Shown: piece after piece, positions 9,238-27,766 of the stretch | Numbering within the stretch: the stretch's first letter is position 1 | Layout of the letters: every line of letters begins with the position of its first letter | Source of the DNA: Thuidium tamariscinum | Taxonomy: Eukaryota > Streptophyta > Bryopsida > Hypnales > Thuidiaceae | Assembly (NCBI GenBank): GCA_947034885.2 | Contig: OX344754.2 | Coordinates: 9,803,001-9,867,000, forward strand | Reading direction: 5' to 3' | Length of the DNA: 64,000 nucleotides | Position numbers and translations under genes: made by a program | Notes under the pieces: generated by a model | The model's database searches: none | The model's input: the letters and a program-made list of their open reading frames with translations, nothing else | What the model was told of the DNA's origin: nothing

Positions 9238-9241
9238 TAAT
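9238..9241. repeat. Target-site duplication TAAT, left
   Basis: TAAT directly precedes the GGGTCAATG terminus and recurs at 27608-27611 directly after the right terminus. Confidence 0.8.
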
Positions 9242-9275
9242 GGGTCAATGCAAGAAACACTTGTACTATTTGTTG
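9242..9275 (+). repeat. Left terminal inverted repeat
   Basis: About 30 bp, matching the reverse complement of 27574-27607 with one mismatch at base 5 (C against G). Just inside it, at 9295-9335, lie closely spaced GTACTAC/AGTACT repeats that could serve as subterminal transposase sites. Confidence 0.85.
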
Positions 9276-10131
9276 CGTTTTGGGTTTTTCTTGTATCTGT
9301 ACTACGTGTACTACGAGTACTGTGAGTACTATGAAGGGTACATAAGATGGATCGTGGGCCGTTGATTTGATTTCAGGATGTGGGACCTTCACGACACGTG
9401 GGCGTGTACGATAGGTTGGCAGGCCTGCACAACGATCGTGGATGAATGGAGGAAAGTGATTCTCATCCACTTTCTTCATCCTCTTCTTAATTTAGCCGTT
9501 TTTGAATTCCGGCGCCTAGGGTTTGGAGTTTCCCATTCCCGCGAAGTCGGTGTGGCCTCGTGACTTTGTCGCAGCTCTTGATTTGTCAAAGTGATGGTTG
9601 CGCACTGATTTTAGAATTGGAATTGAGAGAGCTTCAAGGTTTTAGACATACTTTTTACATTTTTGTGCTTGGTGGGGCCACTTGCGGTTTCATGATTCCG
9701 CCATTTCTGTCAGCAATCGATTTTGTGTGTAATTGGGCGGATTACACCACCGCGAAGCGTGAATTTGGCAAGGTTCGTTGTCGGGGTGCTGCACATTCAC
9801 TGTAGCAGTTGGGACGACTTCAAATTTGAGATTTCTGCATTTACAAGAGGTGCGTTTCTCCATTCCCAACACCTGTGTATGAATTATGTGCCATCTGAGG
9901 ACTTCATTTGCTTAGGGTTTAGGCTCGTGTCCAAGCATTTTTGTCCTACGAGACTGCGATAATGCCTTTCAGTGAAGGGATGTCAGTGAAGGATTTGCGG
10001 TCTGGGGAATGTCCTGTGTTGAAATGGGGTGCTGAACCACTTAGAAATGTCCAAATTTGACCTCATTTCTTAGTGCTTGGTTCGCAATCTCACACCGAAC
10101 AGTCTACCACATAAAGTCAGGCATTGGCGTC

Positions 10132-10545
10132 ATGGACAAACCAAAAAGATTGCGGGCAGCCCCACTTCATAGAAGGCAGAAGCGCAAAATTATGTGGAGT
10201 GATGAGGAAGAAGAAGCCAATGACCTACCTTCTGTCCAGATAAATGGAATGAGCTCTGACCTTACTCCCGCTAGTGTTCAGCACAATGTGAGTGCATTGG
10301 ATTTGAAGCCGAAGCCTCCTTCTCAAAAAAAGAAGATGACTTTGGCGGAACTAGAGGAGAGAAGCAACGCTGAGTATTCTAAATTCTTGCAGCGCATGAG
10401 AGAGCCATTAGGGTGTGAGGGGCCTCTTGACGCTAAAGACAATTCTCTTCCAAATCGTCTTCAAGGCTATGCTAGAGGACCTAAGAAGAAGTTCACCTTA
10501 CCTGTACTCACCTCTCTTGTGAAGGACAGTCCTGATGTCCCTTAG
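10132..10545 (+). CDS. Small basic transposon protein of unknown function
   Basis: An open frame of 137 aa starts at an ATG preceded by an AT-rich leader and ends in TAG at 10543. The N-terminus is very basic (PKRLRAAPLHRRQKRK), like a nuclear targeting signal, and is followed by an acidic DEEEE patch. Later parts contain KPPSQKKKMTLAELEE (possible short helix) and GPKKKF. No domain is recognised. It is the first gene inside the left end of the transposon. It could be a separate accessory protein or the first exon of a longer transcript; nothing shows which. Confidence 0.45.
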   Translation: MDKPKRLRAAPLHRRQKRKIMWSDEEEEANDLPSVQINGMSSDLTPASVQHNVSALDLKPKPPSQKKKMTLAELEERSNAEYSKFLQRMREPLGCEGPLDAKDNSLPNRLQGYARGPKKKFTLPVLTSLVKDSPDVP

Positions 10546-12165
10546 GAGTTAGGGAGAGTCCACATCTTTTTTCCTTAGTAGAATATGCATCCGTTGTTGA
10601 CTTATGTCTTGAAGCCAAACCTCTTCTTTGGCTATGTTTTATATCTTTTCAATGAAATGTAAAATTCGGACTCTATTCCCTTACAAAACAAATTGTTTTG
10701 CTTACTCTAAAATACCACTGCATGTGTTCAATGTCTATGGATTTGTTTTATGTCATTGTCATCTAGAAACGGGTAGGAACTACAACCAGTGCAGACATTG
10801 TACACCGCTTGCATACTCTTCTGTATTTACTATGTTGCATTGCGAGTTCAGGTTCGTTTTTTGAATTATGATGTCACTTTCTGAATGCATGGGGCACTTC
10901 TAGGGAGTACTAAATGGGTACTACTTCACTTTTAACATTCCTTATTTACTCCTTGTAGACTGGCAAGTCCTGAAGTGTAGGATCTTGATAGTAATGACTT
11001 TGTGCATGACATACAGTGTTGGCTGTTCAAACGAACCATATGCATTGTATATTCACGACTGTCAGTTTTGTGCTCCTAAGTGTATTCTATAATGTGTGGA
11101 CTTCGCTACTATATTCTTTCTGGAAAACCTATATTCGTCATACTACTTGCAGTACTTGTGGAACATCTGAATTTTACATTGTACTCAATGTGTGTTATTT
11201 CATGTGTTTAGGTTGGAAACATCATCGGACAGTACTTGGAGGCAGAGCTACAAGGCTTCGGTAGTACTGTCTTCCTATACTATTCCAGAAACTCCATACT
11301 CCAGGTACTTCGTGTCTTTCCTTCTTAAGCTTTCATATCCATAGTACTCACTTTTTGTTGCTTCTCTATATTATTAACATAATTCGTCATAGCATCAAGT
11401 TCCTGTACATTGAATTCTTTTAGTACTACTTACCAAGTGTGCTGTATTCTTTACCTCTTAGGCAGTACTATTCATTACTTCTACAATATACTAAGCCAAT
11501 TTCAAAGTACTACTTGCTTACTACTCTAAATTAGAGCTAATTATAGTGTACTATAACTTCACTTGGAAGTAATGCTAGTCACCTCTGAAGTTTACTGTAG
11601 AACTTGGTAGTACTATTATGAACTTTGAAGCACTACTTATTACTATAAGTTACGCTATGAGTCTTATTCTATAACTCTTCAGTACTACTCGGAACTTTTA
11701 AGCAGTACTTAGTACTATGCGCTGCGCTAAATCCCTAGTTCCATATCCACTGCCACTGATGTTCAGTACTATAGTACTATCTTCTGCATTAAAAAAATAT
11801 TGAATTGCTATCCTATGCTTTCTGACGAAGTGTTCCTTTTTTTCCTTTAGCATTCTTTTGTTGAGGCGGCTTTACATCATCTTTGAATTACAGACTCGGT
11901 ACCACATTGTTCTACTTCTCTATACGGCATCAAAGGCCTTTCACTTGCACTACGGCAGTGCTAAACATGTATGCTACTGCACTCACAAATTTTTTGGTGA
12001 AATACTCCTCTTTCCCTTTCTAAATATACCATGTTCATGAAGCTATAAAGTAGTAGAGGAAGGTGGATAATATTCTTGTCTTACATTACAATGTTAATTC
12101 AATATGTATTCTACTCTCATTGCTTTCTATGTTGTGAGTCACTACAGTTTCTACGTGTGCTTTCA
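10546..12165. other. Noncoding stretch rich in AGTACT motifs
   Basis: No convincing exon was found. At 11230-11790 the palindromic hexamer AGTACT and variants (GTACTACT) recur about every 40 bases. This is probably the promoter or leader of the RING-SET gene. Confidence 0.5.
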
Positions 12166-13789
12166 ATGGCGAGGATGAAGACCTCGATACCAGAAAGCCG
12201 ACCGAGGCCTTCTTCTGTAGACACAGCTGTCGAAGGAGAGGAGGTGGATACAGATACAGAGCCAAGAACTTATGATAAGAAGGGCAAGAAAAGGGGATTG
12301 CAACATCAAGTGCACTCTACTTCACAGAAGGCCAGCAAAGACTTAGCTCCTACTGCTGAAGAAGGTACTAGCCAGAAGAAGAGAAGAAATACCAAAGCTC
12401 CAGGATCATCAGTGCGTGTATCAAGTAGCCCAGGGAGAAGAAAGGCTGGATCCTTAGCGAAGAAACAACACTACCCCACTGTGTCTGGATCTGATGGTGA
12501 AGACACGGACCTTGCGTCTAGAAGTCAGGGTCAGTTAGACGACGATGATATTGTTGATGAAGTGCAAGTGAGGACCCCCTCCAAGTTGAAGAAGGCTAGT
12601 GCATCTTCTCGTGAATACACAAAGACAGAATGCCGCAAGCAATTGCATTTGCTTTCTCAGCCATTGAAGCGGCCTCCGACTGCAATGTCCGAAGACATTT
12701 TTGCCACCGCCTGCAACTTAGGCCGCGATGGTTTGAACCCACACCGGTTGCACATGAACAAAGATGTTTCTTTAGAGACGTGGAAGCACTCTTTGGTCAA
12801 GAGAAGAAGCGGAATGGCTTCCTCCTCGTAGAGAAACTGACTCCTGCCTTGCGTAGAGAGGTGGAGTCCTTGTACTGTCAGTGTTATCAGAAGCCCCATT
12901 GCAGTACTCACATCGGCAAAGAATTGGCCATGGGTTGGACCTTGGAGACAAAAGGGGTTAAAATAAATTGGGCTGGCTTTGCAGCGGAGACAAACTTGGA
13001 TCAACGGAGATCTTATGCTAGGCGTGTTCGGATGTGGCTCCTTCGGCTTGCACAGATTACAGAGAAGCCATTTGACGAACTTGCCAAGGTAGAGGGCTTC
13101 ACAAAGTATTTGGAGGTTGAAGATCCCAAGCAGCCAGTAGTGCAGCTGTTTCAAAACGTCAATGACAACAGTAGTGGAGTAGTTGACGGAAAGTCTTTTA
13201 CTGTGCCTATTCCTCCTTCACGTCTGAACTCATCGGAGTTGGCTGCCAGGTTTACCTCTTGCCTTCCTACTGAAATTCTGTAGCTACCACTTCCATTTTT
13301 TGTCTTCTTCACTTATACCTTCTAAATGCTCTCTTTGTTGGCTTCTTAATTAGGAAGGATTCCGTAAAAGTTGTGCTCGACTCTGTACATGTTGAGGTGC
13401 AAAGCTTGCAAGTCACAGCTGAAGAAGTTCAGAAGAAGGCTGATGCAGCAGCTGACCAGCACAGAGGTAGACTTCTCGGAATTCAGCAATTGCGGGAGAC
13501 TATGACTGAAATGGAGGAGGAAGGCGGCTGTGAGGTCCTACAACGAGTACTTGATGGTCACCTGAGGAAGCTCAACGAATTTGCTGACCAGGAAGTACAA
13601 CTCCGGAACTCTTTAGAGGAGATTACAGCAAAGGTAAAACGATGTGTTGCCCGTGAAGCAGCACTTGAAATGCATTTCAATGACTTGAGTCGTGGTGGTG
13701 AAGGACTAGTGCTGCACCCTCTTCCCCAATTGAAGAACTTTGACAACGTTACTTCGGAAAAGGAATCAACCGTCTCATTGACTGCCCTC

Positions 13790-13935
13790 CGGTGCTCCAT
13801 ATGTTTCGAAGGTTTTCCACTTGGGGATTTCCTTTTTTGCAGTTGCCAACATGTTTACCACCCATGGTGTGCTGCCAATTGGTTCAAGTCTAATTCTTCT
13901 TGTGCTGTTTACAACTGTGGGCCAGTGCATCCCTT
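13790..13935 (+). other. RING-like zinc finger segment
   Basis: Cysteine and histidine spacing is C-x2-C, then C-x-C, H-x2-H-x2-C, then C-x4-C, following a coiled coil of about 110 residues. This resembles RING-H2-type E3 ligase fingers, although spacing of the last pair is unusual and zinc binding is inferred. It precedes the SET region by about 400 residues in the same inferred transcript. Confidence 0.5.
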
Positions 13936-16874
13936 GTGGTCTATGAGTTGGGGATTTGGAGATGCCAATCAAAGCCCTGGAGGAAGTATGTTTGATGCGC
14001 CTCACAATGCAGCAGTTGCTTTTACACCGCTGACAACATGCCTACCTGCGTCTTCACATAAGACCAATTATATGATTGGTAATACACAGCTGCCTAGTAC
14101 TTTCTCCCAACTAGCACATGAAAGTTTGGTTTTGTATAAGAAACTTTGAAATTTTTTTGTTTCATAAGCTCATTTGTTTTCTTTGTGGTAACTGTACAGG
14201 GGTGGCCTCCATGGACACAGGGGCACCTAGCATATCTGCCTCGGATAGCACTTTCTCTAAGTACATGGGCCATGAGCAATTTCATCCACAGCTACATGTT
14301 GTAGGTTCAGATGAAGCAATGCACCTTCTGACACCTAAAGCAACGATGATTGATGGCGATGAAACATTGAATCCTTTTGCTTCTAAAGGTTCCACTGCTG
14401 CTGTTGGCTTCGAGTACCCTTCTGGAAGCGGTACTCTATCAATAGTACCTGGTGGAGCCCTGGAATGTTCGTCTTCGACCCCGATGTCAGCTGTGGTAGA
14501 CTCGGCATGCCCTGTAAATTCCTCTGCACCTGCGAAGGCCACAGGAGATGTATTGGACTTGCCCTCATCCAATCCTCACGAAGATACCCTACCTGCACAT
14601 ACGGTAGAGGAACCTCCGAAGAGACTAGATGCTCGGGCATTGGACTTCAGTTGCAAGAAGGTGCCTATCTTAGTGGATGTAGAGCCCTGTAGTGAACTAC
14701 AGGTGCTTCACTAACCACGTGCCTTTATGCGACTATTGTAGTCTTCGTCACTACTTTTGTAGTCTTTTTTGCATCAGTGGCATTTTGTAGATCCATATTT
14801 TAGAAGGCAATAAAAACTAATTTGTATTCTACTAACAAAACATAGAACGGGTTGCTTATAATTGTGCTTGGCTTACACACTATGCATAAAACATGATGCT
14901 AACAGATCATATGTGGGTTGGTGTAATGGTGAGCAGGACGCTGAAGACCCCTGGGATATAACGGTCACAGAAGTCACTAATACTACAAGCCGGGTGCAGC
15001 GTTCCGTTCAATCTATGGAAGGGCATAACAAGACTTCTGTAGCTGAAGATGCAAGTCCTGATGACCATGCGGTTCTTGCATGCAGTCCTCCAAGAGGACT
15101 ACCGAAGGAGTCTTCATCAGGTACGGTATAGAACCTTTGAGAACCAATAGTACTGGTTATAGTACTATTGGTATTGGTAAAGTTCAAGGTTACGTTTTCA
15201 CATTTTTGCTTTGAGCCCTTCTACTAGAATAGCACAAAGTGGAGAGGATCTAGTTCACTTGCAGTTGTACTTAACACTGAAGCACCACCTTTGACTACTA
15301 GTAGTGCTATCTTAGAGTAAAAACTGCACTATAGAAGCTTAAGAATTTTTTTTTTCCGATGGTTAATGTTGTATCTGTGATCCATACATGTATGGCTATA
15401 GCAGACTAACTTCAGGAAGTTGCTTTGGATTTTACTGTTGGCTTCTTAGGTAAGCAAATTTCATGTGTTGGATCCAAAGTAGATTGCCCCCCCCCAAGCT
15501 AGTAAAAGGCAATTGAGACCACGACCCGGAGCAGCGGCGTTGGAAACTGAAGGAACCAAAAAGACAGGAACTCATGGTGGACCACGATCTTTGAAGGAGG
15601 TGGGTAAAAAGTAATTCCAGTAAGGAACTAAGGACGCTCTTCTCGCCCACAAAGTAGGTGTGCTATGGAGGGGGGGGCAGGCATTGCTTCGACATGTAGG
15701 GTTGGAGAGGGGCCACGGGGCCCAACTTTGTGGGCCCTATTTTGAGAGACGCTGGGTTCCAGAGGGGCCATTGGGCACAATTTTCTGGGCCCTGTTTTCA
15801 TAGTTCTCATTCCCTATGTCACGGGAGGATAGTGGCCCCTACCTTTTGTAATTACTGTAGTACAAGGAATTATATTATATATGACTACCATCCATTTTCT
15901 ACTAACCACGTTTTTCTTTGCACTTTGGAGCAATTGTATGACATGTTGTTATGGACAGGGTGAAGAACAGTCACTTCCTTGGGACTTGGCTAAGGGTATG
16001 GAGAATTTTCCTATCCTAGTCGCCGAGCCAACTTCGTCAGATGCTTTGTCGTCATTCGATCATTCCTACATTTATGTATGCAGTCCTGTGCTGCATGAGT
16101 CAGTGACCGCAGGAGCACTGGCTCATGCACGTGCTATGGACCAATTTTGTTTGTGCATATCCACAGTCAATGCTTTTGACAGGGGTACAGAGAATTATGC
16201 TTTGCATAATACTGGAGGTGCAGCATATACATTGGATGGTGCTTTACTTCCGGAATACATAGCGCAGGTGAATTTATACCTTTGATTATGTTTAGTTTTC
16301 TTTCCTTATTGAATTGATTTGCATATAGAGTATCATGTATTGGCAGTCTTATCGAGAATAATGAACTTGGCCTAGATGTTGACTTCCTTGGGACTTGGCA
16401 ATTCCTGATGTTGCTATTTCTTCCTCAGTTCCTCTGTAAGCGCACAGTGCGTAATGGAGGGCTAATTCGATGCGGTGGACATCACTCTTGCCCTGAGTTT
16501 GAGAACGGCAAATGCGGTGGCCATGTTCATAGAGCCTACATTCAAGAGTGCTACGACACTTGCCGATGCATATCATCCTGTTCTAACAAAGTTGTGCAAG
16601 GTGGTGTGCACAAGAATCTCCAGGTACAATGCTTGCCAACGTTGACCCCGACATGGTAGACATTGAACTAGAGGGAAGAATGCAAGTGCCACCTCTAGTG
16701 AATCGTACACACTGCATAGATGCTTTTTTCCAGAAGTCCTTTCTTTTCTTGAAACTTCGACTGATTTGGACATGTATTGGTCCAAGTATTTCTTTATGCA
16801 TTATGCTGAGTACTTCTTTATACAGGTCTTTCATGTTCATGACTCCAAAGGGTGGGGGATTCGGACCACAAAGA

Positions 16875-16890
16875 GGTTGGGCGGTTGGGC
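16875..16890 (+). repeat. 8-bp direct duplication breaking the SET frame
   Basis: GGTTGGGC occurs twice back to back (16875-16882, 16883-16890). Discounting one copy restores the conserved KRLGRGCFVFEY junction, and the exon length then gives the phase needed for the next splice. An adjacent 8-bp repeat is also the form left by excision of an element with 8-bp target duplications. Confidence 0.8.
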
Positions 16891-17522
16891 CGAGGATGCT
16901 TTGTTTTTGAATATGCAGGAGAAATTGTTAGTAATGCTGAGTTATTGCGGCGTGGGGGGGCAAAGAAGTACTCTCTAGCACTTGATGCACATTGGCCATC
17001 TGAAGTGATGTTGGGAGATGAAGACTTGCTTTCTATTGATGCATCTAATTTCACAAACATTGCCAGGTGGCTAAATCACAGGTATGTGCTACTTTTTCCA
17101 CATTCCTCTGATTTCTCCTTCAAAAAATTATACATCTTCACTCTTGCTCTCATTGAGTGTTGCATATTTTTCATACTGTGCTTGTCTGTGGATGTTGTGG
17201 TTGCAGATGTGGTGATGCAAATTTAATAGACATCCCTGTTTGGATAGAGCAGAGGATTCCAACATTGTACCATGTAAGAACCTCCTCTGCACTCCTTCGA
17301 TTTTGAAAATTCTCTTATACAAGTGACTACGTATAGATACTTACACCTCACAGAATTGGCGTCATGGTCTCTTTGTTGTTGCAGGTAGCATTTTTCACAA
17401 GCAGAGAAGTAGAAGAGGGAGAAGAATTAACGTGGGACTACGGCTGTGCCTTCTCTACAGTTGACGGAAAGCAGGAGCCATTCCACTGTACTTGCGGTAG
17501 CACGTTCTGCAGAGGGCACTGA

Positions 17523-18719
17523 ATTTCTGAAATTCATGAATGGCTTTATGTGCAGAAAGATGTAAGAAGTCTGCACTTGAAATTTGTTGTATAGTTCAAC
17601 ACAGAATGGGGTCACCACAGTACTTATAAGTACTATTCTTCTTGTGTATAGTCCTTATATTGTTTCTTAAGGGAGACATCTTATCAAGATTAGAAGACAG
17701 TACTTCTATAGTACTTGGTGATTACAAACTATATTTTTTTGCTTCTTTTCCCATTGTAGTGGTACTGTTTTCTTAACATCAGCAGTGGAAGTGTGCCACA
17801 AGCAGTCTCCCTTTGTGGAAGTCATAAAACATTCTGGATGTCATTAACAATGTTGTAGCAGTTGTTGTATAATAAAATATAAGTGCTGCTAGGAAATTAG
17901 TATCTCAGTATGGTGTACCTCAATAATTCTTATTAAGGGCTTCATTTTCTGCATTCACAATTTATAGTAACATCTCAGAAGAAAAAGCTTAGAAAGAGTG
18001 TTTGTGTCAATGATAAGAGACTGCATTGTATAATACTATGAAGGAAGTCATAGAAGTTAAATATTCTGTCTTGTGGTATTGTTGTCGTTCATTCCATTTT
18101 CACAATATCCTTCTGAAAGTATGTCAAAAAATTTGTTGTTTCTCGGAAGCTCATAGAGAATATGGAATTTCTATGTTAGGAAATAGAAACTCTTCTTCAA
18201 GTGGCAACTTTCATATGTGTTTTAGGTATTTCCATCATATTTTGTAGGGGGCAAAAATGCAATGGTTTAAAAAATTGTGTTTGCACATATGTATAGAAAG
18301 CAATTGTTACTTCTTCAGATGACTAAATTCATGTCCAAATATTTACATGTTTCCAAAAATACAATTTCACTGTAGTTGTGAACATTGCATACAATAAAAC
18401 GATGGAATAGTTCTAATTATTACAGAACTTTTGTCGCCAAGTACTTTAGGTCCCCCTAATGTTATTTAGACTTAGTGAAGAGGGACTTCTCTCAATACTC
18501 TAATAGAATTAAAAAATTAAAAAAGATTGTACGCAAATACCGAAATTAAAGACAAATAGAAAAGACATGCCAAATGTACACAGTGAAGTACAAAAGGGTA
18601 GAATAAGGCCCTCCAAAAATAACTTGGGCAATTTTCCATGAACTCAATAACAGAAGCTATAAGAGGAATAAAGGGGAAGAGAAAGAAATAATAAATTACT
18701 AAAAGCCAAAATTAGTGTG
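17523..18719. other. 3' flank of the RING-SET gene, no further gene seen
   Basis: AT-rich, with AATAAA-like signals (for example AATAAAATAT near 17872) that could end the upstream transcript. Several AGTACT motifs lie at 17618-17715. No coding signal. Confidence 0.45.
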
Positions 18720-19796
18720 GGGTCATTGCACGAAATATTTGTACTTTGTTTTGTCACATGGTACATGCTGAATTGGTTTAGGGGCATCACTTTTGTGTTT
18801 TGGCTCTAAATGATTCAAAATTTATAGGCAACATATTTATAACTATTATGTATCTTTTCTATTTTTTTAAAGATTTCAAATTTTTTTTATTATTTTTCAT
18901 TAGCCCCAATGTTTTGTTACAAATTCCAATTCAGGGTTTTTTAGTATTCTTTTGAACCCCAACAAACGAATATGGAGGTGAAATTTGGAGAGCATGATCT
19001 CATAATATAATTATAGCTATTGACTAAAGGAGTTTTCAAATTAATTAATTTTATGTGGTAAAGAAGTCCACAAAGAGACCTTTGTGGTACTTGCTTTTTG
19101 AAACATATAAAACATTATTTTGGTGGATTTGTTGTTCAAATCTCATCACCAAAAAGTCTTCTTAAATAATATAATTTTAATTTTCTCTTAAAAATTAATC
19201 CTATTTTTTCTTAATTAAAAAATTGTATAGAGAAATTTTCTTCACTTGAATTCTATGTCTACAATTCCGATGAAGGAAATACAACTTTTACATTTTAATT
19301 TTCAAGAAATAGGAAAAATGAATTTAAAGAAATCTAGAAATTGGCCATTTCTGAATACTTTTTGGTGGTAAGATTTGAAAAAAGAACCCCACCAAAAAAA
19401 GGTTTCATATGTTCAAAACCGCAAGCAGGAAGAGGGTCTCTTTGTAGAATTCTATACCACATAAAATTAATTGTTTTGAAAATCCCTGTTTGGTAAATAC
19501 CTATAAGTATATTATGAAATCATCCTCTCAAAATTTCACCTCAACATTTGTTTCTTTGGGTTCAAAATAGGACTGAAACCCCTAAACTACTAAGTGTGAC
19601 AAATTAACAAAATAGACTTCTAAACAGAAAATGAATTTTTAAAATTTCTAAAAAAAAGGGATATCAATTGCAATCAAGATATCTAGAAATAGGTTTTCTG
19701 TTTTTTGCATTGAGTTCATAATTCGAAAGTTAGAGCCTTGTTTAAGTGGTCCAAAAAAAAGGCAACTAATAGTATAGGTGTTTCGTGCAATGACCC
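18720..19796. mobile_element. Nested 1.08-kb inverted-repeat element of the same TIR family
   Basis: Both ends read GGGTCATTGCACGAAA inward, and TGTG flanks both sides (18716-18719 and 19797-19800). The termini resemble those of the host transposon (GGGTCAATGCAAGAAA) and the TSD is also 4 bp. Most of the element is a long imperfect inverted repeat. For example, AGGTGAAATTTGGAGAG near 18977 returns inverted near 19530, and AATTAATTTTATGTGGTA near 19043 returns inverted near 19460. There is no coding capacity, so it is a non-autonomous foldback-like derivative. A transcript through it would form a long hairpin. Confidence 0.82.
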
Positions 19797-19800
19797 TGTG

Positions 19801-20199
19801 AAGCCCAAAAAATTGATGCCAGAAACAGAATGGAAGGCTACGTTTAGCCTTACAGAGTGGAAAGGCCCCAAACAATGGGGAGTGCAAAAATTCTAAAAGT
19901 AATTCAAGCCCAAATGAATAGGAAGGGGAAAAAAACTCTATAAACGGTTTAAACTGGGAAGAGAAACAAATCGGGAGCGGATAAAATGATGAAAGTAGCT
20001 ATAGCACACATGAATTCAAAAAAACAAAAACAAAGGGAACGTTGAAACATATAGAGGGAAAAAAAAGGGGGACTTGGAGTGTAATTGAGAAAAAAAGGCC
20101 AAAGAAAAAACGGAATGTGAGAGAATGGAGAGGGGAAAAAAGACAAGTGACTAAAGAAGGCCCAAAAAAAAAGGGAATGCAAAATAATTCGGGGGGGAG
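19801..20199. repeat. Purine-rich degenerate repeat block, left part
   Basis: A-rich and G-rich degenerate units with recurring GGCCCAAA..., AGGGAATG and AGGGGAA words continue on the other side of the nested 825-bp element. Not coding. Confidence 0.5.
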
Positions 20200-20209
20200 G
20201 GGGAGAAAC

Positions 20210-21034
20210 CGGGGATGCTATTTTCTGAGCTTGCGAAGCGTGAGCCTGTGAGCTTTTGAGCCTAGAATTTTTGGAGAAATTTTTAGTGATTTTTAGGGCA
20301 TGGACCTATAACCATGCTTTAAGAATTTTGGATTTCTATATCTAGTACCCCCCTCATGGGATTTGAAAATTTTGACTTTCAAATCTTTTTTTTTTTTTTT
20401 TTTAATTTTCAATTTTTTTCAATTTTTTTTAGTCCCTTTTTTTTCCAAATTTTTTTGCAACTCCATCACCCTCCAAAATCCCTCATGATATTGAAAGGGG
20501 TTTGGAGGTAGAGGGCTTTTGAGCTCTGAAAACTTTTTTTTCCATATTTTTTCAACTGTTTCCATTTTTTTTCCAACTATGTTACTACTTCATTTTTTTG
20601 GCGATTTCTCACCCTTGAAAACGATCTCTCGGTACCGAGAGATCAATTTGACGGTGATAAAGTCGGAAAAAAAGAGCTTTTTTTAATCTTTTTCAGGACT
20701 CCATCATCCTAGAAAACCTTTTGTTGGATTCTTGATTTTGAACCTCAAAAATAAATTCAGAAATTCAAATTTTTTTGGAAGGTATTTAGAGGCCCTTTGG
20801 AGATAGGAGGGTTCGAAATTTTAAAATACATAAACCACATTTCTATGGTCATTGGTCCACGGTCATAGGTCCACGATCATGAAGCTCACATTTTACTACA
20901 AATAGATTTTTTTGGAATGACCTCATTTTTTTTTCTCTTCGCTTAAGAAATTCACAGTTTTTTGGGTTAATTCTCTGCCTCAAAAACCCTATGCTCACAA
21001 GCTCATGCTTTTGGGCTCACAAACTAGCGTCATT
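20210..21034. mobile_element. Nested 825-bp element with 10-bp TSD
   Basis: GGGGAGAAAC flanks both sides (20200-20209 and 21035-21044). The left terminus GATGCTATTTTCTGAGC matches the inverted right terminus GACGCTAGTTTGTGAGC. Subterminal GTGAGC/GAGCTT words repeat inside both ends. A 9-10-bp TSD suggests a Mutator-like non-autonomous element. No gene inside. Confidence 0.55.
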
Positions 21035-21044
21035 GGGGAGAAAC

Positions 21045-21380
21045 TGAGAAGTAGTTGAAGCCTAATTGAATAAAAAAGTGCCCCCCCAAAAAAGGGATTG
21101 TAAAAACATGAAGAGGGGAATAAAAGATAAGTACTAGAGGCCCAAACAACTAGAAAAAGGCCAAAAAAAAGAGGGAATGTAAAAAAAATAATTACTGGAA
21201 TAAAAGAGAAGTACTAGAGGCCCAAACAACTAGAAAAAGGCCCAAAAAAAAAAGGGAATGTGAAAAAATGCAGAGGGGAATAAAAGATAAGTACTTGAGG
21301 CCCAAACAACTAGAAAAAGGGCAAAAAAGAAAAGGGAATGGAAAATAATTGGAGGGGGGAAGTGAAAAGTAGTTGAAGCC
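21045..21380. repeat. About 85-bp purine-rich tandem repeat, roughly four copies
   Basis: The words GAGGCCCAAACAACTAGAAA and GGGGAATAAAAGATAAGTAC recur at a spacing of about 80-90 bases from 21110 to 21345. Degenerate relatives lie at 20080-20200. Confidence 0.6.
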
Positions 21381-22347
21381 CTTGGAAGTGAATTGAAAAG
21401 GCATAGAAATGGGAAAGGAAAAAATTGGAGATGGGTAGAAATGGATTAGGAAGGACATTATGAACTGAAGTGAATGGGAAGTGTCAAAAATTGAATTTCT
21501 AATTCTAACTCTCATTTACGTTAGAAATTTCATAGTAGTTCAATATATATTATATGTAAAATGAAGTAATGGCAACATTTACCTATCCAAAATTACAATA
21601 TTTTATTTTTATTTTTTAAAATTCAGAATAAAATCGAAGTACGAAGGAGAGCATTTGTTTATACCCCTGAACAATAAAAATTTTGCTAATCAATAAAATT
21701 GAAGGGTAGATTTTGTTAAATAGCCAAATTTGACTTCAAAGTCTTCCTTGTATTTGTTTTGGAAGTAAAAAATAGAGTAATCACTTAGACATTAGAATTA
21801 AGAAATTCATAGCTACGTGTATGCATTGCACAACTTTTCATTTTTTTTTGTTTCAACTAATTTTACTTATTTATTATAAATTTTGGCAATAGAGTCCAGA
21901 ATAATTAAGTCTAACCACAGGACAAATAGCAATTTCTTAAAACAATGAGTTCCTAAAATAGAAAAGGCATTAAGTTGTAAATAAGTATGTTTGTAAAATA
22001 CAATAGTAGTCATATGTACACAAATCATTATATTCACTTATCATTCAGTGATGAAGTAAGCCCATGACAAGCAAAAGAAGTAATTTAGAATAATGGACTT
22101 CCTCATAGAAAGGTCATATGTTCATGAAGATTACAAAAACAAAAACATTGCATAGAATAGAATATTTGAAAATCATATGTGAGGAAAAGTTTGAGGTCTT
22201 CATTGTGGATTACCTAAACATTCTTGATAGTGAAGGAGAAGCACCTGCGTTGATGCTTCTTGCCCTCTGAATAAAATATGAAGTTCCCTAAGAATGCATT
22301 GTGCAATACTATAGTAGGCCTCTCTTATAGACTAGTTACCTTGCTAT
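21381..22347. other. AT-rich stretch downstream of the transposase, no gene seen
   Basis: Contains the probable 3' untranslated region of the minus-strand transposase. No open frame of note. Confidence 0.4.
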
Positions 22348-25300
22348 TTAAGCATCAGCCTGCAATTCTTCTAGAGCTGTGTTGATCACATCAACAGTCT
22401 CCTCTGATAGGGTGTAAACAGCATCTCCACCTTTGACTCTGTGCTGCCTTGGGATCATCTGGAATTTGCATGCAAGGACAGAGCTGCAATCCACATATGC
22501 TGGCCTCGAGGTCCGCAAATACACGTAGTTGTTTGCATCACCACGTCCCCATTTTTGGTAGTAAGTACCACAGATGACTGAGTCTCCAGCTTGGAAGTGG
22601 CTTCCCCAAACACAGTCAAAATCTTCTTGCACAATGTGTTTTGGAGTCTGGCATTGTAAAATGAAGAAAGGGACGCCTTCCTCATTGTTCTCACTAGTTG
22701 CCACTGCAAAATTGTCTCCCTGTTGCACTAAATCTGCCATACAATCAATGTCATATTCATAGTCCCAAGGTTCTTCGTCTTCTTCTTGGGTCATTTGCGT
22801 TGCAGCAAATCTGACATTCCGTGGTTGGATCTTCAAGGCAGTCCACGGCTTCACATAAGCTTTTTTCTCACAGTGAACAAAGTCTTCCTCCAAGCACGGG
22901 CCACAAAAGCAGGACAGGCCACGCACAAGTAGCTTTGTTGGATCTTGTTGATCAAAGCCGAAAATGGAGTGGAAATTTGAGGATCCGGGAATTGGATCAC
23001 AGTGTTCTACAGCTGAACGGTCCACATCGTTCACTCCTACGTGATGGAAATATCGGTACGATCTGCACACCCAATATGTGCATGGTTGAAGCCATGGTCG
23101 TTATTCGGGCAAGTCTGTAAATATAGATACTATCTCAAGTGCACTTGAAAATGGGAAAATGGGATTCAACATTTCAAAAATCAGAATTACATGGAATTGC
23201 AAAAGAGAAGACTTTATTCCTTGAGAACGACTAGGAACTTGTCCAGCCATAGTGGCATCCAAGAAGAGAACGCAGTCCGTTGCATTTTGGAGGCGTCGAT
23301 GGGGGTTCAGTAATTGCTCTGCCCGAAGTGCCCTTTTTATGACTGCTCCTGCACCATCCCATTCGCCTTTTCCATGGCCTGTACCATAATAGCTCCATAG
23401 CATCTTACATCCGCTTGTAAGTGAGGGATACCTATAGAAGTGGAAAGAGCAGAAGTGAATGCCTTAGAATTAGACATACTTATGTCAATGAATTGCAGGT
23501 ATAGAGGGCTCAGACATCCTTTATGAAACCTGTCGTCAAAATTGTCAGGCAATGTAGTAGGGGTAGTACTAAATTATTGGTGTTCAAAACAGTCGGTGAG
23601 GACTATGTATAGCTCATGAGTATTTAATAGTACTTCGGACTACCAAATAATACTACGTAGTACAGATGACAAAAGAAACAGGAGGTGCTTAGTACAGAAG
23701 ACAGTGGACTCAGTACCTAGTACTGACGAAAACAGTAGAAAAATGCAAGTAGCAGCAAAATATTCATGGAAATATAGAAGAGCACTTGACATAAAAAGAG
23801 GAAGCATTACCTTGCAGCGAAGTACATGGCTTTAGCACCTTTGAACTGTCCCGCACAACCATCACTAAAAACATAGTGAATTTGTGGTGAAAATCCCCTT
23901 GATTGCATCCAACGCCAATGCAGCATCAGGCAATGTTGGGCAAAGAAGGTATCATGAGTCTTGTCATCAGAGATGTAGAAGTATGTCTCTCTTTTCAATT
24001 GTATACCCTCTTCCAAAACATTCTCTTCAGCATCAGCACAGAATGTAACTTGCACCAAAATAGAGATTTGTTCGGAATGATAGTACATGGACTGGATCTC
24101 ATTTTGCACCTGAAATGTGTAGTTCTCAGAGAAATCTATGTGAATCAACATAGCCCCTGCTTGCAAACAGGACTGCAGAAGTTTTGCTTGCTCACTCTGC
24201 CACTTTGCTATGAAGTTATGGCGAATGAATTGTTCCACAGTCGGTAAAAAGAAATCCAAGAACTCAGAGAAAGACATTGTCATGAGAACCTCTTTGATGC
24301 GCTTTTTGGGTCGACCATCTGTAGACGTCCCTACAGTTTCGTACTGGAACTGCTTCCACTGAATGATTCGGATTGCATCTGTCACCCGTTCACGAGGACA
24401 AACTTTGAAGAAGCGCACACCACATCTATTGCAGCCTCCCATCAAGCATTTGCGCTTGTGGAATTCTTCACCTTCAAGCTTTGGACATAGCAAGTCATCA
24501 CACAATGCTGTCACCCCTGCATATTTACTACTGCCCACATTGCAAACTCCTCCATTCTCAAAGCCGCAGACAATACACTGGCAGGTGCATATGAAGAGTA
24601 CATGAGCACCTGTACGGGGATCACGGAATGCATTTAGGGCCTCTAGAAGAAACAGGACTTGAATGTGGTACCTACAGCAGCACACATTCCGCTCCTTGCA
24701 CTTGATCACAAAAAAAGGTCGGAGTTTGAAGAACGCTCTGCACTGAATGCTGAAATGGGGATGGGCTTCCACAAAGCGATTGAACAGCTGCATCTGTATA
24801 AATTATGGATTAGTATATATAGTAGAAAATGGAAGTAATTATAGAAGATAAGCCAACCTAGCACTATTAGTACTCAATAGTACTGCATTTCAATCATCAG
24901 AGTACTATTAACAGAGGAGGACTACTATAGTACAACACAGAAAGCAAAGTAAAACATAGTACTGAAGAAGAGAAAATTACCAACCATATTTCAGAAGAAA
25001 TAGAGGCCTTACCGCATTATACAAGCATAAAGTGTATATAGTACTCCATTGAGGACTATACAAAGAAAGAAGTGATAGTTCCAAGTTCAGTAAAAACAAA
25101 GAGGACATCATAGTACTTGACGGAGTTTGGAAAGATATGGAAGACCTCAGCGGTTAGAAGTGCACATCCGCATAATACAGTAGCATTGGCCTTAGTACGT
25201 AAAGAATACACGGAAACAACAGATAGTACTGTAAAGTAAACAGCAATATGGATGTAGTACTTACTGCATTCAAGTGAAAAAATTGAAGGAATGAAGCAAG

Positions 25301-26743
25301 TATCGGGAAACAACATAGTCCTACATAGTGGTTAGAAGATGTATTAAACAATATCCTAGGGCGTATCAAAAATGCGCATAGTCATGAACCAGTACAATTA
25401 GTGGTCTTCAGTATATGTGCACCGCATATGAGCTATGAATAGGTGGGAGTACTACATGTCTGATGCCCTAGGGTTCTCATAGTACTTCATGTAGATAGGG
25501 AATGCAATAGGGAGTACTAAGATGGACATAGGGTAATGTCTCTTACAAGTCAAATGAAGCAGGAAGCCTATAGGGAGCTAAGTACATAGTAGTATCATAC
25601 CTAAACAAAGAAGTGCAACCTAGGGATACAGAAAGTGCTTCTTGTTGTTCAAAATTCAGGAAGACATGGATGTTGTTAGAGTGTCCAGATTGTAATCAGT
25701 GATTCTGTTGCAAAGGCAAGTAATACCATACGGAGATGACAATCATTCAGAAATCACATCATATACAGAGTTCCTGTAGAGTTATTCGTATCCTTCACCC
25801 ATTCTATCCTTAATGTATAGAGTTTGAAGCTCTTGCATTATGTATTGTCATTGTAAAAGCAAAGGAAACCCAACTACAAGGAACTGAAAGCACTCATGGA
25901 AGACATGCAACCAAAATTCAGAGTAAAGCATTGGATACAAAGTAAAGGAACATAATTTAGCAAGCAAAGATGCACCTGATTTTCAAGAAGTAGATGTGCA
26001 GCATGTGTATCGTAAAGGCTACGTCCCAAGCGTTTTCGTCGCACGTCCCATCGCCTTGGAGTCACCCTTGTTTGTTCAGTCCACCACAGAAGAACAGCAG
26101 CCTTCACTTCTTCAGATATCCCGCCTTCCCGTCTCTTGCGCGTTGGAACTACATATCGACTTGATGTAGTAGTTGTAGCGGATCGCAATCGGTCCAGTGC
26201 GGCCACCAAATTCTCCTTCCGTGTACCCAAGATGTTGTGAAAGTTTGAAATGTCTGAGTCCAATTCGGAAACAGCTGCTTCCAGGATAGCTCGCTTCCGT
26301 GCCAACATACCAGAAGAATGCGGAACTTTCAATGCTTGTAAGTCGGCCCGAATGTTCTGCAATATATCTCGTTGTGCTCTCGCTTCATGAGGACGAGGAT
26401 AGTAATCTGGAAGTAACGGTCGTACGCGCTGGTTTGTGAAGACCTTGTCTAAAACAGCAGCTCGCACATCAGGATCTCTAACTCTTTCTAACAAGCGGAT
26501 GAGAGAGTCCACAATTCTTTGCGAACTTCTCCAGAGACTAGTGCAATTCCTACTGGAACCCCATCGAAGTGGTCGATGTGCAACAAGTTCTTCACGTTCG
26601 TTCTCTGCATTGGCCGCTGCTTGTGCAGTATGGCAGCGACGTTGCCGCTCCCTCCACAGTTGTCGTTGTACATCAATTACTGCAGCTGCCATGGAAGCTC
26701 GAGTCCGCGGATCCGGCCGACCTTCCCTCCTTCCTTCATCCAT
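22348..26743 (-). CDS. Spliced DDE-type transposase of the large transposon
   Basis: Exons on the minus strand: 26743-25976, 24793-23811, 23431 to about 23191, and about 23062-22348, coding for roughly 900 aa. The first exon gives an Arg-rich N-terminus and a likely DNA-binding region (ISEEVKAAVLLWWTEQTR). It joins in phase to exon 2 with FFKLRPFFVIKCKERNVCCC and several CxxC pairs. The catalytic core shows IHIDFSENYTFQVQNEIQ (first Asp), HYVFSDGCAGQFK (second Asp), then exon 3 with GKGEWDGAGAVIKR (candidate third acidic residue). Exon 4 carries CFCGPC and an acidic tail. These motifs belong to a widespread transposase-like family whose name I do not assign. The splice joining exons 3 and 4 is unresolved in phase, so a defect there is possible. 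It faces the RING-SET gene tail to tail. Confidence 0.75.
24794..25975. other. Large first intron of the transposase gene
   Basis: About 1.2 kb between exons 1 and 2, with many AGTACT copies (for example 24864, 24872, 24899, 25040, 25224, 25480). No separate gene seen. Confidence 0.5.
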
Positions 26744-26969
26744 GATTACCGGTCATATTGCCTCTTAGAATTCTAAGTAACGCAGCAAAAAACAACAAAG
26801 GCAACAACCACATTCCGACGCGCCTGAACACAATTGTAGCATAGAAGTTGACAGAAGAGAATTTGAAAACCCTGACAACGAAACTGAGGAAGGCGTTGGC
26901 GGCGGCATCGACCCAGTATTGGAATAATCACGACATTCAATAAGCGACGGCAGTATTCCTGCAGCGCCT

Positions 26970-26988
26970 GACGTGGACAGTCCACGTC
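26970..26988. promoter_or_regulatory. Perfect palindrome in the putative transposase promoter
   Basis: GACGTGGAC-A-GTCCACGTC lies about 230 bases upstream of the transposase ATG. It contains two inverted CCACGT cores, like G-box binding sites for plant bZIP or bHLH factors. Regulatory use is inferred from position and symmetry only. Confidence 0.4.
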
Positions 26989-27573
26989 TGCTAATTGTTC
27001 TTTCTAGTGGGCCCCACTAGTACTATGCAATGCTTTGCACTACCCCGCACTACTACTTCGAGACACAGTGTGTAATTATTCATGAAAAAACACAGTAATG
27101 GTTTTTCATTTTTAGAAATTACTAAAAGGACCTAAAAAATTATGGACAAAAATGGCCATTGTAGCTAAGAAACAGGAGAGGAGGAAAGCTGATCCAAAAA
27201 TTGAATTTTCATTTTTTAATGTCGGATAATTTGAGGTAATTGAAGCATACTTTAGGGCCATGAAGAACTCAGTCAAAGCATTATTTCTAAAATCCCTCTC
27301 CTGGGAAGGTGTATATTGCTTACACAAGCAAGCTCTATAAATTTCAGCTCCAATGACTTCAGCTTGGGTACTCAATAGTACTAGAAACTAGTAAAACTTC
27401 ATTTGTGACATTTATTGGAAATTCAATTCGACCCATACAACTAATTTTGATAAAATTGAAAAAAATTCCTTAAGTTTTAAATGTCCGTGTGAACCCTCGT
27501 TCGAAATTTCGTGTTCATTGGATCATTTTTGCATTACTTATGGTACAAAACTACTTTCAAATTGTTGGTGTGA

Positions 27574-27607
27574 CGAAAAATAGTACAAGTGTTTCTTGCA
27601 TTCACCC
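27574..27607 (-). repeat. Right terminal inverted repeat
   Basis: Reads AGTACAAGTGTTTCTTGCAT followed by TCACCC at the outer end and mirrors the left terminus. TAAT follows immediately. Confidence 0.85.
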
Positions 27608-27766
27608 TAATAAACCTCTATAACTCAATGTGTCAAACCAGTCCCAGATTGAGCCAAATTACAAAGGATGTAAGTAAATCTGGCCCTCTCTAAATGAATA
27701 AACCTCTATAATTCAATATATTAGACTAGGCTAGGACTGATTGAATTAGAGAGGTTCTACTGTAGT

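Follow-up and report, generated by a model that had tools for sequence, protein, structure and literature searches.

The window analysed here, a 64,000-nucleotide stretch of Thuidium tamariscinum DNA (C6:9803001-9867000, in a 363-Mb genome of 19 contigs), contains at positions 9242-27607 a complete transposon with two convergent genes. On the plus strand lie coding exons, probably of a single gene, for a domain of no known family (domain X), a RING-like finger and the motifs of a SUVR-type SET histone methyltransferase, and the minus strand encodes a transposase. The element is bounded by 30-nt terminal inverted repeats (TIRs; 9242-9271 on the plus strand and 27578-27607 on the minus strand), which begin GGGTNAWTGCAMGAAA and match at 29 of 30 positions (97% complementary), and by a TAAT target-site duplication on either side (9238-9241 and 27608-27611). 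With up to 3 mismatches allowed, a 23-nt core of the TIR occurred at two places only within the window, namely the element ends (0.00 expected). A second element, on contig C2 (C2:4648001-4667000; transposase main exon 86% identical), aligned with the window element exactly as far as 9242 and 27607 and carried its own duplication, GGCA/GGCA, so that the enclosure of both genes by matched TIRs and a TAAT duplication, as described in the first-pass annotation of this DNA, was borne out. Two further elements served for comparison, one at approximately C1:42.9 Mb and one on C11, which was read over 17 kb and whose ends were not found within those 17 kb.

The two convergent genes and the element ends

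The plus-strand gene runs in the order domain X, RING-like exon, pre-SET, SET and post-SET, and ends at 17522. The domain X exon spans 12166-13279 and is followed at 13354-14149 by an exon that combines a part which by eye is coiled-coil-like with a RING-H2 finger at approximately 13790-13906 (Pfam zf-RING_2, 28.0 bits, cut-off 27.3). The pre-SET region lies on an N-terminal exon at 15959-16267 (start approximate; by eye, several Cys of the C11 element are missing) and a second exon at 16429-16623, while SET and post-SET occupy 16826-17081 (KGWGIR ... LNHR), 17207-17273 (CGDANLIDIP) and 17385-17522 (ELTWDYG ... CTCGSTFCRGH stop). The candidate introns that separate the SET exons from one another, and X from RING, have GT-AG ends. 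A short coding exon further upstream (10133-10545, plus strand), whose C2 counterpart shares about 44% identity with it and which has a short weak match in the C1 element, is either a 5' part of this gene or a separate small gene. The exons given here for both genes were common to the window and C2 elements, and most of them also to the C1 element. Both SET (62.7 bits, cut-off 22.4) and Pre-SET (49.2 bits, cut-off 29.1) exceeded the Pfam cut-offs in the C11 element, in agreement with the earlier identification of pre-SET, SET and post-SET motifs on this strand; the C2-element SET scored 50.2 bits, and the window's own broken SET exon alone scored 13.9 bits, below the cut-off. The PDB chains closest to the C2-element SET were EHMT2, EHMT1, SETMAR, SUV39H2, SUVH6 and Clr4.

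The SET gene of the window copy is broken, since an 8-nt tandem duplication at approximately 16879-16886 shifts the frame of the SET exon at 16826-17081 and domain X carries a frameshift near 12760-12780. Three copies that are 97-99% identical in the stretches compared (C7:24.8, C5:25.4 and C5:9.6 Mb) contain the same SET gene; the 8-nt duplication is absent from all three, and the X exon is open in the C7 and C5:9.6 copies and interrupted by one stop in the C5:25.4 copy. There are, judging from these reading frames, intact-looking relatives of the window copy.

The transposase gene extends on the minus strand from approximately 26743 to 22351 and comprises an N-terminal exon (25954-26743, boundaries approximate), a main exon (23810-24793), an exon with HGKGEWDGAGAVIKRA (23230-23403) and a C-terminal exon (22351-23070). 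The main exon is open in the window copy, and in all 14 aligned rows its translation has D at residues 220 and 311; the main exon of the C11 element is 43-45% identical, with X/RING, SET and transposase still recognisable there. The DDE type that the first-pass annotation gave this transposase is putative; it draws on the conserved acidic residues only, and Pfam returned matches below cut-off only and PDB no match of weight (none by sequence at E<=1, and a single profile match with E 0.9). An AlphaFold model of the transposase exon (pLDDT 31) was too poor for a fold search, and the transposase peptide patterns had no match in viral contigs. We take the Sola superfamily, which has a 4-bp duplication, as a lead only for this transposase.

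Duplications of 4 bp were present at four of the five insertions examined (TAAT, GGCA, TGTG and CAGC), the latter two being those of two nested non-autonomous elements; the nested relative with TGTG, which has related TIRs, lies at 18720-19796 in the window element. The fifth insertion, the C1:42.9 Mb element, had none. Two near-identical elements stand there in inverted arrangement (C1:42.90-42.94 Mb, with one examined for the duplication), and this pair may be a palindromic duplication or an assembly artefact. Genome-wide, a degenerate 25-nt TIR pattern with at most 1 mismatch had 2946 + 2985 matches and its reversed control 0 + 0, and among the first 100 of these places about a dozen pairs were, by eye, approximately 700 bp apart, which suggests many non-autonomous derivatives. 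In the C1 stretch of the listed places, for which 19 of the 100 were picked by eye as near, there were five transposase loci of the SET-bearing group: one was flanked left and right by fitting TIRs at a distance of 14.9 kb from each other, two had a fitting TIR on one side, a fourth had within 20 kb no TIR other than one in the wrong orientation, and the fifth had none. The filler between both genes of the window element (20000-21500) holds several near-repeats of a stretch like GAATAAAAGATAAGTACTAGAGGCCCAAACAACTAGAAAAAGG.

Genome-wide linkage, selection and origin of the SET gene

Genome-wide locus counts were drawn from the matches listed and are lower bounds. Two query searches, once merged, gave at least 146 transposase loci, with 116 in the window's group and 30 in a sister group, the latter delimited by a limit chosen post hoc (identity <42% to the window transposase query and <=42% to the C11 query). 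SET loci numbered at least 151 when the matches to Pfam SET and to the SET of the C2 element were merged. Searching with the SET of the C11 element as well gave 170 matches, and 14 rows picked by eye as possibly new among the matches listed added 2 loci. A SET gene lay within 20 kb of at least 104 of the 116 window-group transposase loci, and all 104 pairs were convergent; before the C11 SET query the figure had been 102 of 116 among the matches listed, again all convergent. Random placement of the 151 SET loci (1000 trials) produced a mean of 2.5 and a maximum of 9 of 116. None of the 30 sister loci had a SET within 20 kb among the matches listed of the three SET queries, a result whose weight is reduced by the same random placement (mean 0.5, maximum 4 of 30). 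Sister transposases such as those at C5:343245 and C6:16301641 are about 40% identical and have neither SET nor X nearby among the matches listed. Domain X was detected at a minimum of 105 loci, 88 of them with a SET within 40 kb, and in 85 of these 88 it shared the strand of the SET and lay upstream of it; among the matches listed, 73 of the 116 SET-group transposase loci had X within 30 kb, whereas 0 of the 30 sister loci did.

The two genes have also diverged in step. A Mantel test on 22 elements, each read for both exons, showed that transposase and SET distances correlate (r 0.857, p 0.0001), in a set that includes one pair 26 kb apart (L029/L072) and two near-identical members (L025 and L026). 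Between the window and C2 elements, synonymous divergence (dS) was alike in X, RING, SET and transposase, at 0.78-0.92, and the ratio of nonsynonymous to synonymous divergence (dN/dS) was 0.19 for SET, 0.22 for X, 0.24 for RING and 0.09-0.10 for the transposase, the exception being the N-terminal pre-SET exon (0.57 at dS 0.36); comparisons with the C1 element were mostly saturated at synonymous sites. Over pairs with dS 0.3-1.5, which are not independent, median dN/dS was 0.155 for the SET exon (54 pairs) and 0.096 for the transposase exon (46 pairs). The WDY motif was kept in 28 of the 31 SET loci viewed (exceptions L051, L055 and L067); of 27 loci compared for the NHxC motif, 26 retained its NH (exception L062), and scattered stops occur among the SET loci. 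Both genes are under purifying selection and have been inherited together through much divergence.

A tree of 82 columns placed 29 element SETs and the host SUVR exon apart from SUVH, EHMT2 and ATX with support of 99/97, and the same grouping had 100/97 without ATX; SUVR was represented by one row (L075), and L064, L006 and L008 were omitted as near-copies of included rows. An N-terminal WIYLD domain marks a subset of SUVR. A genome search at E<=10 returned three WIYLD matches, one over cut-off and two weak, none of them beside a listed element, and L075 was taken as SUVR because the one over cut-off (C1:43265066) sits 4.4 kb upstream of its SET (C1:43260405) on the same strand. The SUVH gene of this genome (L003) has SRA, Pre-SET and SET. 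The element SETs by themselves formed one side of a weakly supported branch (49/66, 78/67), and the tree is compatible with a single capture of SET. As to the first-pass question whether transposon copies form one clade apart from host SUVR genes, the element SETs did not group with one local host gene in the way expected of a one-off capture, and a single clade of all of them is compatible with the tree.

That a host SET gene entered one transposon by one-off capture or chance insertion is, given these data, extremely improbable. A related host SUVR gene does exist; against this explanation stand the single arrangement at at least 104 of 116 loci, the co-divergence and the purifying selection, by which it is refuted. 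These data support the original proposal that the SET gene is true cargo, and other copies do keep both genes.

Forty-seven of the 151 SET loci listed had no listed transposase within 30 kb, 16 of these with X within 40 kb and 31 with neither, some of these being host genes. Four near-identical SUVR-like SET genes (L004, L006, L007 and L008, at C5:20.14, C10:16.14, C2:35.05 and C11:4.77 Mb) have no listed transposase within 30 kb, and two of them have domain X approximately 13 kb upstream; they may belong to a further mobile lineage that is moved by a transposase of another kind. C11, at 17.5 Mb the smallest among the eleven contigs sized, carries several near-identical element copies and could, as a guess, be a sex chromosome. 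The window also contains plant-type genes outside the element, which go here by names given by eye: positions 5.4-7.8 kb hold trihelix-like open reading frames (ORFs), 39 kb one that is DUF538-like, and 41-42.3 kb a Rab GTPase.

AGTACT arrays, methylation footprint and the possible role of the SET protein

The hexamer AGTACT occurred 47 times in the window element against a first-order Markov mean of 4.7, and 10 times in the window flanks against 9.3. Similar excesses were obtained for the C2 element (32 vs 4.2), the C1 element (34 vs 4.3) and the 17-kb C11 stretch (26 vs 4.7). The sites in the window element are concentrated in its non-coding DNA, with 43 in 11.6 kb as opposed to 4 in 6.7 kb of coding sequence, and include arrays of 14 sites at 10546-12165 and 11 sites at 24794-25953. 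Arrays were seen in the window element and in L009-L038; 30 transposase loci, the window's included, had 352 sites where 40.3 were expected, with at least 3 at each, and 30 SET loci, some overlapping, had 148 where 28.8 were expected, with at least 3 at 26 of them. Four host SET loci together had 2 sites (2.2 expected). In the 5' intron, none of the 14 window sites shares a column with the 12 of the C1 element and two are shared with the 7 of the C2 element, and four are shared between the 11 window and 7 C2 sites at 24794-25953. With so few sites in common columns, the density of AGTACT looks maintained while positions turn over.

H3K9 methylation is a main plant weapon against transposons (SUVH-CMT3 pathway). 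The usual equipment of this element group is a transposase gene convergent with X-RING-SET, and we consider it fairly probable that the SET protein works, via AGTACT, on chromatin of the element family that encodes it. Enzyme activity is predicted because the active site is conserved and the SET is close to H3K9-class enzymes, and self-targeting because of the motif arrays. The X-RING-SET protein would be tethered, through X or through the transposase, to AGTACT arrays across the non-coding DNA of the element, and the tethered SET would then methylate H3K9-type sites on chromatin of the same element family. What the element most likely gains would be a chromatin state under its own control, either a dormancy that can be reversed or a degree of methylation that keeps the host from silencing it more deeply, and we favour this over an attack on rival elements; restraint of rivals or of host genes, as the first-pass annotation suggested, is no more than conceivable. 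The motif arrays and the CHG-type footprint described below have an indirect bearing on these functional proposals. Tentatively, we advance the more specific proposal of a self-addressed system: AGTACT docking arrays, maintained in introns by selection, would be read by the SUVR-type methyltransferase together with its RING and X, which would write the epigenetic state of the element family, so that the silencing level would be set by the element and not by the host.

An alternative function of the motif is that AGTACT serves as transposase or transcription-factor sites, with SET directed at the transposase, integration or host genes and not at the element's own chromatin. A cluster of AGTACT/GTACTA adjoins the left TIR, and GTACTA lies within the TIR itself. 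Most AGTACT sites are however internal, non-coding and far from the ends, and the nested element at 18720-19796 was able to move although it has 0 sites, the nested element in the C2 copy having 2; we judge this alternative unlikely.

The element copies also bear a C-to-T footprint. When the window copy was compared with its three near-copies, C>T or G>A accounted for 107 of 121 singleton differences in one stretch and 68 of 87 in another, and per-site rates over both stretches were 0.13 for CHG, 0.11 for CG and 0.036 for CHH (chi-square p 2.5e-17). In two other element families the rates ranked alike and C>T made up a smaller share (95/180 and 173/411), in a comparison confined to transposon families. 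CHG methylation in plants accompanies H3K9 methylation. The copies appear to end in H3K9-type silent chromatin, which may be self-imposed or host-imposed.

The main rival to self-controlled chromatin is a VANC-like anti-silencing in which the protein would be drawn to the AGTACT sites of the family that encodes it and relieve silencing, its RING degrading a host silencing factor or its SET mark blocking the host CHG-methylation loop. The non-coding density of AGTACT resembles that of YAGTATTAY in VANDAL21 (PMC5735166), the window, C2 and C1 elements all retain the RING-like exon, and X, RING and SET are all under purifying selection; the strong CG/CHG methylation footprint on the copies speaks against it, and we rate it as possible, if rather unlikely.

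Several observations weigh against a SET protein that acts on its own family through AGTACT. The CG and CHG footprint in near-identical copies implies that they are silenced in the end whatever the protein does, and the motif cluster adjoining the left TIR means that AGTACT may serve the transposase. No AGTACT was present in the stretches read of L070, L074 and the L004 family. The X, RING and SET exons probably form one gene, by splice-site logic alone; the RING of the C11 element fell below Pfam cut-offs, the window family has by eye seemingly lost several pre-SET cysteines, and an AlphaFold model of part of domain X was poor (pLDDT 46).

Comparison with known systems

A large, old element group has kept an H3K9-class enzyme under selection in many lineages, which makes self-managed transposon silencing directly testable: one genome offers some hundred copies that bear SET, a sister group with no SET among the matches listed, a SET-broken copy and a candidate docking motif. 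The element SETs resemble plant SUVR, with which they group in the tree, but are accompanied by X and RING and have no WIYLD match beside a listed element. VANC, the closest parallel to the anti-silencing alternative, is not known to be a SET protein. In the VANDAL study, the VANC21 motif YAGTATTAY sits in non-coding VANDAL21 DNA and its binding was shown, and the system shares with the present one a second gene, a short motif concentrated in non-coding DNA and targets that vary between related elements; it differs in the motif itself (AGTACT here) and in that motif counts alone stand here where binding stands there (PMC5735166). VANDAL elements are moreover MuDR-type (PMC12730594).

SETMAR is a SET methyltransferase fused with a Mariner transposon in primates (PMC12062965). 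It likewise brings a SET methyltransferase of an H3K9-related class together with a transposase, but as a fusion, whereas here two separate genes lie in a mobile element present in about a hundred copies. Fungal DNA transposons that encode TET/JBP enzymes, which oxidise 5-methylcytosine, offer a further likeness in that a captured enzyme acts on epigenetic marks, though they belong to fungi and to other transposon lineages (PMC12730594).

A precedent is provided by the Phytophthora HarbingerS and MuDR elements, for which Kojima and Jurka (2014, Repbase Reports, as cited in PMC12730594) reported an encoded SET methyltransferase and which are, like the present group, DNA transposons with SET histone methyltransferase cargo. 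Because of this precedent, SET-cargo transposons are a known kind; the Phytophthora elements belong to other named superfamilies and to an oomycete, whereas the elements described here combine a SUVR-type SET with X and RING, a 4-bp duplication and AGTACT arrays. No report of SET-bearing transposons in plants was found among the titles and abstract openings listed from the open-access literature searched, and as far as that literature shows, the plant host, the SUVR type, the X-RING partner, the scale and the motif arrays are the new parts of this system.

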